Below the pieces are notes generated by a model. The model ran no database searches and had not been told where the DNA came from. It worked only from the letters and a program-made list of their open reading frames with translations. Position numbers and translations under genes: made by a program. DNA of 64,000 nt, from the NCBI GenBank assembly GCA_037179385.1, contig CM074200.1, positions 31,251,884 to 31,315,883 on the forward strand. The letters run 5' to 3'. Positions 14,301-17,300 of the stretch are shown here, in pieces; within the stretch, counting starts at the first letter, position 1; each line of letters opens with the position of its first letter. Source of the stretch: Holothuria scabra. Lineage: Eukaryota > Echinodermata > Holothuroidea > Aspidochirotida > Holothuriidae.

Positions 14301-17300
14301 CAGACTTGACAGAGGGATTTCTGGTAATATTTGAGTTTCTTCCTGAAAATAAACACAGGCCATGATTTAAGGGGAGGAATCGATATCTTGTCTGTAATAA
14401 TTTATAATTTATAAAATAATCAAGTTTTTATTTTGACCGAGAACTAAAGTAAGAGATGCTGCGTAAACATGGCAAAATAGTCTAAATAGGCCTGAATAAA
14501 AAAAAAGCTTGAAATACAGAATTCCAACTAACTTTTTTTCATTCATGCGAGCCATTTTCAGTCTATACACGTAGATCTACTAAATCTTTAGCTCGTTGTG
14601 TGGCATAAATTGCCTCAAAGAAAGTGGAGTGAAAGATGGGAACGAGGAGTAAGAATGAGAGCAATAAAATCCCACTTAGAATCCCCTTTTTAATTTCCCC
14701 GGAAAAAATCTCTTAGTCCGTCCATTCATCAAGCAGTAAGGACTGTTTCTGTTTGAGGCACTCAGGATGACTAAGTTTTAATTTCTATTCTTTTATGAAT
14801 GGAAAGTCACAGCGTTATAGACAGTGATGTAGTCGCGGCGAGTCCGGGTCGGCTTCGAGTCACGAGTCTTTCATTTTAACTTTCAAGGACTCAAGTCCGG
14901 ACTCGGACTGAATGCCCTTTACTTTTCTCAATGGCAGAAAATATTAACATCTCGGGCCAAGTTCTTCAAATTCACTGAATTCGAATCCGGATTCGACTTC
15001 AGCTCTGATTATAGAGGCTTCGTTCTAATGTAGATTCTAATAAATGTAACTTACCCTTTAACTTGTAACCAATAATTTGCAACAGGTTGGTCTGCTGTAA
15101 GGACAAAGTCAAATCGTTCACCAGGAAACATAACAAAAGCATTGACCGGTAGTAGTCTCACCGGCCTGCCATCACTAGCTATTACTTCAACTGTGTGGTT
15201 AACTACGGAGATCTGCAAGGGGCAGTTGGTTATTCCGTTGCTTGCTACTCGAATCCTGTACGTTTTCCCTTGTTCTACTCGTAGGATTTCACGTGGAGTA
15301 AAAATAGTATGGTCAGAGTTATTGTGGACTGTTTTGAAAGGATGTTTTTGGCCATGACCATTGATCAGAATGGCGTCTGGAGTATTAGGCAGTCCGGCTA
15401 AATGATGACCTATAAGGGAGCATATCCCAATTAGCAGGTGTATTACTGCGTCCATTTGTTCGCCCTCAGATAGAGTCCCTAAAAGGAGCACTTTTTTGAT
15501 ATGTTATGGAATGAGCTGGGGTTTTCTGTAAGTTTCTTCTGAAAGTATATCAAATGAAGTACCATTGGTGAAAAAATGGGCGTAATTGAAGCAATTTTGT
15601 GGAAATTATGGGCCTTAGAAGCTGGCGGAGGCATACCTAGATTTTAGTGAAAAACAAGGCTTGGAAAAGGTGGTTTGAACTTTGAGGTGAAATAGCAAAA
15701 AATCTTCACGGTCATGATATGGTAAATTGAAAGTGCCATGAATGGCCAACTTGTCAGCTTTCATATGAGGGGTAGCTTGACCCTGGCGAAAACTTCGACA
15801 AGCTTTTAGAGGCCCGTTTACTTTTTGAATTTAGTGTGTAAGTCAATGGAGGAATTAATGGGGATATGCTCCCATAAATGCTGACAAAGTAGGTTGATCG
15901 AACCAGTCGTTTATAAGAAGAACATGAGTTTCATTATCAATTTCATAGTTATTTTGATGAACTTCAGTCTGCAAAGGAAATGAAAATAGAAATTAAGTTT
16001 TGCAAGTTGAGTTTGGAAGTCACATGCAGACATGGCCTACTTTATTTCGAAGTGGTACCTATTCAGTGGGGTATTGGGTTTGTGGCGCACCTGGTAAGAA
16101 GCGACATTGGGTCCTCTATACCAGTAGCCTAATATAATCTTATTTACTTAACACAACTGACAACTCATAAAGACAAGATGGTTATTTCAATATCATGTTC
16201 ATGGCAGGCCGGGGTGGCGTCAGGATCTGCCCGACAAGAGTGTTATAGGTCCCCTGATAGGGGAGAGCATTTCCAAGCCCCGATAAAGGCGATAATTCCA
16301 TGTGGGACGTGATTGGCAGCATTTGAGGTGCACGCAGCTGAAATAATTAAAAGTCCGGAGCTTGTTTTAAGGAAAATTTTAAAATTTTTGAAAAAAATTG
16401 GCTTTTCAAGTTTGTAAGGACCATTAAATATATTGAAGAATCTGCCCTACATATAAGCTTAATCTAAAAATTTTGTATGGATTTCTGGAAATAAATTAAG
16501 GCTTAGGCACTTTATTCTAGACCTACGTACTAAGAATCTTAGATTAAACTGGAATTTTGCGTGAAATTTTTCTACCTTTTGGACAAAATTTTGAAAATTA
16601 TGAACTTTTATTGGAGAATGTTGGGATTCAATGAGTGAGAATGCAGGTATAATTGAAACCGAGCTTTTCAGAATGCTTGAAAGTCTGGAGCTGGCATTGA
16701 AATTTGCTTGGATTCTTTTCAAGAAAAATGGGGAATTTCGAGTTTGCTCGGTAAATACCTTATTCTAAGCAAAATCAAGTGGATCTTCAGGAGGGAGGAG
16801 GGGGTGAAATTTATTGGGCTTTCTTCCTTTATCGTATAGATGAAGAATCTCCGACAAAATTGGAACTTCTCCCCCGACGAAGGGCAGCTTTCCTCTACGA
16901 GGAACATTGCCCCACCCAGCTGACGCCACCCGGCTCTGACAAATGGTAGTTCCAACATTCTTTTAAGTGATCTCGATTTTGCGTCCCTTGTTGTGGCGCC
17001 CGGTGCAAATTTCCCACTTTCTTCCCTCCCCATATCTGTGCCACTGTTCCTACTGTCCTAAAGAGTAAAACATTCTGGAAATCCCCACTCCGTTTAAGTC
17101 TATTTAACTAGTAAAAGTCCAAAAAAGTCTTTCATCCTTCAAATGCTTATGTTCAGCTGATATACACTGAAGTTGAAAATGTGAAAGCTCTCACTATTTA
17201 GTTCAAGTAACTAAGTAAATAATGGAATGTTTTCTTGTATGTCCAGGTTCCTGGTCAAACCTTTTGTATGTGGTCCAGCCTTTGTTCAACTCTTTGTGTA

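Follow-up and report, generated by a model that had tools for sequence, protein, structure and literature searches.

Elements of the KolobokP group, as described by Kojima & Bao (2022; PMC9587614), are built from a terminal direct repeat (LTDR) of ~450 bp (or ~660 bp) that has inverted ends of its own, 11-18 bp in length and perfect or imperfect. In the same account their termini read 5′-RR...YY-3′, their target-site duplications (TSDs) are 3-5 bp long, and they occur as LTDR-INT-LTDR monomers, as solo LTDRs and as (LTDR-INT)n-LTDR multimers; in KolobokP-1_MeMe, the INT begins and ends with the same 4 bp. The hosts listed are oysters, other molluscs and several phyla that include three echinoderm classes. 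Excision leaves footprints in which 1-5 bp are deleted on one side, and families without coding capacity are classed as nonautonomous (PMC9587614).

Two further systems concern transposons that lie in coding sequence. In SOS splicing, which is reported from animals, ligation by RTCB is the final step, and DNA transposons with inverted ends that lie in exons of animals are among the substrates described (review PMC13247085, on Zhao et al., Nature 649:496). Introners, as described in PMC9860276, resemble the element reported here in being nonautonomous DNA transposons that carry terminal inverted repeats (TIRs) and sit in coding sequence between 4-bp TSDs.

The DNA analysed here (hereafter the window) is a stretch of 64,000 nt, C22:31251884-31315883, within a 1.19-Gb, 31-contig assembly. 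Its minus strand carries a laccase (multicopper oxidase) gene whose exon C is interrupted by 458 bp. We regard it as very probable that a young copy of this sequence, likely a solo KolobokP LTDR, landed within exon C of a laccase gene that is otherwise intact, and that the allele so formed is to be expected null.

The laccase gene and its interrupted exon

Exon placement was guided by P0001, a 654-aa relative from a 2361-nt contig whose source label, 'lgn', we take to denote the Logan sequence-archive assemblies. Exons A-E lie in the window and exons F and G outside it, since the gene extends past the window (Table 1). P0001 is colinear with the laccase gene and uninterrupted while the gene spans ~39 kb, so its contig is presumably a spliced transcript. 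Without the insert, the gene reads through 664 codons over seven exons (two of them beyond the window), counted from the M aligned with P0001, with zero internal stops, and is 81.6% identical to P0001 in a 658-column alignment. The splice junctions observed are canonical (GT...AG), and four copper-binding motifs are kept (HWHG, HAHSG, HPMHIHGHAF and HCHIQFH). A preliminary description of this DNA had stated that all other exons are intact, which is true of the seven exons found and does not extend to the gene start upstream of exon A.

Table 1. Positions of the laccase exons and of the insert in exon C (window coordinates, except where the contig is named)
Feature	Position	Strand	Remarks
Laccase exon A	27921..28049	-	Counted from the M aligned with P0001; true exon may begin further upstream
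Laccase exon B	22689..22958	-	Cu-oxidase_3 domain, HWHG and HAHSG motifs
Laccase exon C	15055..15968	-	914 nt with insert, 452 nt without; start phase 0, end phase 2; flanks TTTGCAG and GTAAGT
Laccase exon D	6442..6620	-	P0001-guided placement
Laccase exon E	1960..2369	-	P0001-guided placement
Laccase exons F, G	C22:31245990-31245703, C22:31240794-31240528	-	Outside the window
Insert, 458 bp	15416..15873	+	Likely solo LTDR of a nonautonomous KolobokP-like family; from end-to-end genomic copies and architecture
TSD ATAA, left copy	15412..15415	.	Read from sequence
TSD ATAA, right copy	15874..15877	.	Read from sequence
Left terminal inverted repeat, 18 bp	15416..15433	+	Begins GG; from sequence
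Right terminal inverted repeat, 18 bp	15856..15873	-	One mismatch to left; from sequence
First in-frame stop (TAA) in laccase frame, within insert	15855..15857	-	Reading as written

The insert has the inverted ends and the ATAA duplication attributed to it in the preliminary description, the 18-bp arms differing by one mismatch. Within these arms GGGAGCATATCCC occurs exactly at 15416-15428 (+) and 15861-15873 (-), and allowing up to 2 mismatches adds no third site anywhere in the window; a count of 2 in the window is not above chance, being reached by 17 of 100 shuffles. That the ends might have arisen by chance, which would have spoken against a transposon, is excluded because copies elsewhere in the genome share exactly these 458 bases. 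Once 462 bp are taken out, the laccase frame is restored as had been claimed: exon C reads ...DQPTLSAFIGHHLAG... and is stop-free, and the frame across the insertion point is ...DQPTLSAFIGHHLAGLP.... As written, the frame does stop within about 20 bases of the insertion, at a TAA that lies 17-19 bases into the insert on the minus strand and corresponds to residue 171 from the M used.

Homologues were taken as the best 120 of 683 protein hits, from a search restricted by protein length, and were compared by pairwise BLASTP. The closest among the matches listed is P0001 (85%), and it carries the empty site, DQPTLSSFIGHHLAG. The alignment spans the insertion point in 119 of the best 120 homologues (P0001 and 118 others), and in none of these 119 are there ~154 extra residues at this point, the largest local insertion in the pairwise alignments being 19 residues. 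These data supply the empty site that the preliminary description had proposed to look for in related species. No carrier transcript of the laccase gene, and no protein from the same species, is present among the best 120 of 683 protein hits. The top three named homologues among the matches listed belong to Holothuria leucospilota (50%), Amphiura filiformis (47%) and Anneissia japonica (49%), and the lower-scoring ones to molluscs, a centipede and others, as well as to the echinoderms Apostichopus japonicus (51%) and Diadema antillarum (52%). These affinities point to an echinoderm as the likely source of the genome.

A genome-wide search (39 matches from 43 candidates) identified the laccase locus as the sole one near 82% identity to P0001. 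The remaining matches are paralogues on C12 and C5 with 31-64% identity; the six that cover exon C do so at only 37-51%, and therefore no empty copy of exon C appears elsewhere in the assembly. The paralogue exon clusters are located at C12:36.95-37.64 Mb and at C5:13.47-13.49 and 18.19-18.20 Mb, and appear to make up about four genes on C12 and another two on C5.

Several other features were recorded in the window. A tRNA-His (GTG) gene is found at 40166-40240 (+) and a second tRNA-like match with an ambiguous anticodon at 38044-38120 (-), both amid long TA microsatellites (37827-40830). A perfect 50-copy ATG microsatellite (30249-30400) reads on the minus strand as a long polyhistidine frame, and a 253-aa open frame (30475-31233, -) seems by eye to be part of a LINE reverse transcriptase, with no Pfam match at E 0.01. 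Nine other ORFs of the window likewise gave no Pfam families at this threshold.

A family of solo and composite repeats

A genome search with the 458 bp returned 1565 candidates. The best 40, laccase copy included, were scored, and all 40 match bases 1-458 at 99-100%. The exact 30-base left end is present 296 times genome-wide (171 forward, 125 reverse), and its reversed control 0 times. Of the 30 left-end copies that come first along the genome, 28 align over bases 1-458; identity to the laccase copy is at least 99% for 8 of the 30, at least 98% for 18 and under 95% (87-94%) for 8. The 40 scored copies, being the best candidates, overstate the uniformity of the family relative to these 30 picks. 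The family has been recently active and includes older members too.

In the fetched loci, the 458-bp unit (M) is found solo, as M-X-M in which X is ~1.8 kb, and as a head-to-tail array of four M (L009), and the spacing of many copies is ~2257 bp (the 458-bp repeat plus ~1.8 kb). Multi-copy sites are L009, L010, L015, L019, L023, L028 and L030-L034 (genome G000). Over all 458 bp, the laccase copy shows no difference from L011 or from the first M of L010. It departs from the majority of 42 copies at two positions, both variants being shared with other members. In many composite copies the repeats do not differ from one another. X, the INT of these elements, begins and ends with TTAA adjoining M. 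These inner junctions have the look of a past insertion of the repeat into an INT that was circular or tandem.

At the outer ends, a 4-bp target duplication of variable sequence is present at 24 of 28 distinct solo sites (the laccase site included) and at 7 of 11 distinct multi-copy sites, or 31 of 39 overall; it is absent at four sites of each kind. For this count duplicates were removed, stretches starting or ending inside arrays were set aside, and L053 and L065 were dropped as having no full-length match. The open frame across the empty site is 159 aa at the laccase site, which ranks third of the 28 solo sites. The two solo sites with longer frames (L003 and L064) are, judged by eye, presumably LINE coding sequence, and the multi-copy site L019 presumably retroelement pol, which indicates that the repeat also inserts into other repeats. 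Given these longer frames, an open frame alone is no proof of a host exon; at the laccase site, host-exon status is shown by the homologues and the gene model.

A second array, with a period of ~2957 bp, was noticed at L078 (G000:C6:41581700-41584800), with copies to about 41605400. Its repeat is ~88% identical to the 458-bp one, its interior is different and holds no stop-to-stop frame above 97 aa, and it represents a sister nonautonomous family.

The architecture of the family corresponds closely to that described for KolobokP. Specifically, the direct repeat measures 458 bp, carries inverted ends of 18 bp with one mismatch and has the termini GG...CC (RR...YY); monomers (L010), a four-repeat multimer (L009) and 28 distinct solo sites are all present; and the 4-bp TSDs counted above, the INT bounded by a tetranucleotide and the occurrence in what is likely an echinoderm all agree with that description. 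The monomer is 2715 bp, and nonautonomous KolobokP monomers in oyster are given as 1.7-3.3 kb (PMC9587614). In contrast to KolobokP, the INT here does not encode a transposase or a His-Me nuclease: there is no ORF above 66 aa in the L010 monomer or its INT, and the INT has zero Rfam matches and zero Pfam matches in six frames. No transposase therefore links the family to Kolobok, and the family is filed as nonautonomous. The insert is thus likely a solo LTDR of a nonautonomous KolobokP family, a name given to it from its architecture. What sets the present copy apart from the KolobokP elements described is its insertion into a host coding exon.

Other assignments fit less well. A plain MITE is ruled out by the repeat-INT-repeat forms and the arrays, and a Tc1/mariner element with its TA target is disfavoured by outer duplications that are 4 bp long and variable. 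A 4-bp TSD would suit Sola2 too, but the direct-repeat architecture differs from the descriptions of Sola2 at hand. A further alternative is that the 458-bp unit does not belong to a DNA transposon but is a solo LTR left by an LTR retrotransposon of a nonautonomous type (TRIM or LARD), with which direct terminal repeats, solo copies, arrays, short TSDs and the frequent identity of repeats inside one composite copy would all be compatible. Nevertheless, the unit has 18-bp inverted ends of the form GG...CC instead of TG...CA, and a reading of L010 revealed no TGG primer-binding site following the first repeat and no purine tract preceding the second. Moreover, LTR replication does not explain the TTAA at both INT junctions, for which a KolobokP parallel is published (PMC9587614). 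An LTR origin is therefore, in our estimation, very unlikely.

Possible routes for removing the insert from RNA

If the insert could be removed from the transcript in frame, laccase might still be made from this allele. Splice sites were evaluated with a simple and rough position-weight score, using textbook base frequencies; on this scale the exon A-E donors range from 7.6 to 11.4 and the exon B-E acceptors from 6.0 to 11.5. There are 17 single GT/GC-AG introns that leave an in-frame, stop-free reading, with donors all at or below 2.6 and acceptors all at or below 5.5. The four whose combined scores are highest would take out 249-288 nt of coding sequence. Another two spare the host, at a loss of 0 or 4 nt, but depend on GC donors (scores of -6.5 and -7.8) and retain 57 or 49 nt of the insert. 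Two-intron solutions number 636, in which the first donor is never above 2.6; the best of those losing no more than 60 nt have first donors of -2.1 to 2.6. The earlier assertion that the frame cannot be restored by any GT-AG pair must therefore be amended, in that 17 such GT/GC-AG introns exist, but all have weak sites and either delete coding sequence or retain insert sequence. The nearest donor (TTT|GTCAGC), said to be in the wrong phase, is indeed so and scores -0.1.

Two further routes were rejected. The loss of 452 nt through skipping of exon C would shift the frame. A U12 intron could be drawn from AGC|ATATCC with the branch-like site at 15510, but both later AGs are out of frame; this inspection followed the site at 15510, one of three branch-like sites present.

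It could be argued that the insert is a new, introner-like spliceosomal intron, or that it is skipped via cryptic sites to yield an in-frame mRNA. The 3′ junction (TGCTCCCTTATAG|GT) is a moderate acceptor (5.6), and within the insert an acceptor scoring 8.4 lies at 15782 and a donor scoring 6.6 at 15637. However, the donors available to any such in-frame intron, whether single or the first of two, are those weak ones just described. Furthermore, unlike the introners described in PMC9860276, the element and its TSD supply no good in-frame splice pair, all such pairs falling short of the laccase gene's normal sites by a wide margin even on this rough score. We consider it highly improbable that the insert is lost in this manner. 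In-frame spliceosomal removal of the insert is unlikely, and out-of-frame cryptic splicing is possible because of the internal acceptor and donor.

The remaining route is independent of the spliceosome. SOS splicing requires inverted ends, and CAAP1 is an SOS splicing factor. In the predicted RNA the ends of the insert pair with a mean probability of 0.97 (17 pairs, four flank lengths), forming a duplex of -26.6 kcal/mol. The ends are also paired in the minimum-energy fold, for which the z-score of the whole stretch is -1.74 and 5 of 100 shuffles fold equally well. The insert is accordingly hairpin-forming in prediction, as had been proposed, and this exonic transposon has, again in prediction, ends able to pair in RNA, which is one precondition of SOS splicing. 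When the ends were kept and the core was shuffled 15 times, mean pairing was 0.87, with 14 of 15 at 0.81 or above and one at 0. This result indicates that the ends themselves account for the pairing, which need not reflect any special design.

Inverted-repeat-dependent SOS splicing of the insert, with the gene functional in carriers, would draw on this predicted pairing, on the known exons being intact elsewhere and on the report of an animal pathway with RTCB ligation (PMC13247085). The preliminary description had treated the intact gene as a hint of removal from RNA, but it is uninformative here: an insertion with zero differences from two siblings is too young for decay to show, so the state of the gene would be the same under each reading and cannot discriminate among them. 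With nearly any other core these ends would be expected to pair likewise, and the 18-bp stem is short against the 54-bp inverted ends of Tc1. The locus shares with the described substrates the placement of a DNA transposon with inverted ends in an animal exon (PMC13247085), and differs from them in its stem length and in being known from DNA sequence and a predicted fold alone. Altogether, SOS splicing of this transcript seems to us very unlikely, and an RNA-repair mechanism is unnecessary to explain the insertion. If it were true, SOS splicing would be extended to a new phylum, an 18-bp stem, a new transposon superfamily and a natural gene.

A young insertion and what it offers

The occurrence of such a copy in an exon calls for no special tolerance. 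With coding exons assumed to make up ~3% of such a genome, ~300 insertions would place about nine copies in exons, and hence one exonic copy is no surprise by this estimate. Because the laccase copy is identical to two siblings, it must be a very recent arrival, and the allele, known here from one haplotype, is probably recent and polymorphic.

Under the explanation we favour, an autonomous KolobokP transposase acting in trans would have cut or copied the LTDR, which was then pasted at an ATAA target. The transcript would retain the insert and reach the TAA within 20 nt of the insert start. The outcome would be either nonsense-mediated decay or a product that lacks the third cupredoxin domain entirely and all but a small part of the second. 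Reversion at the DNA level is possible in principle because KolobokP excision deletes 1-5 bp on one side (PMC9587614). Such an excision might occasionally restore the frame, with the loss of exactly 4 bp returning the original sequence and the loss of 1 bp leaving one extra codon.

Of the interpretations in the preliminary description, the one favoured is that of a recent insertion disrupting one allele, given the identity of the copy to two others and a family of hundreds in which many are near-identical. That of an older, decaying gene is not supported, as the seven known exons are intact. It might still be proposed that the element is old, or that the gene was already a pseudogene for other reasons. 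The assembly holds the filled site only, with no second locus at that identity, and some copies of the family are older (the 8 of 30 under 95%). Set against this are the 664 codons without another stop or frameshift, the canonical splice sites and the four copper-binding motifs, together with a laccase copy that has not diverged from its two siblings. An old element or a prior pseudogene is therefore extremely unlikely in our view, and a young insertion remains the explanation that we prefer.

An insertion in a gene is, by itself, ordinary. The laccase locus is nonetheless a clean natural test case, in that the element is young and has inverted ends, its host gene lacks a close second copy in the assembly and the empty site is known, and it bears on whether such insertions are rescued at the RNA level in animals beyond worms and human cells. 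Furthermore, the abundant and recently active KolobokP-like family to which the insert likely belongs is present as solos, monomers and arrays in one chromosome-scale assembly, and is good material for learning how composite elements move and excise.
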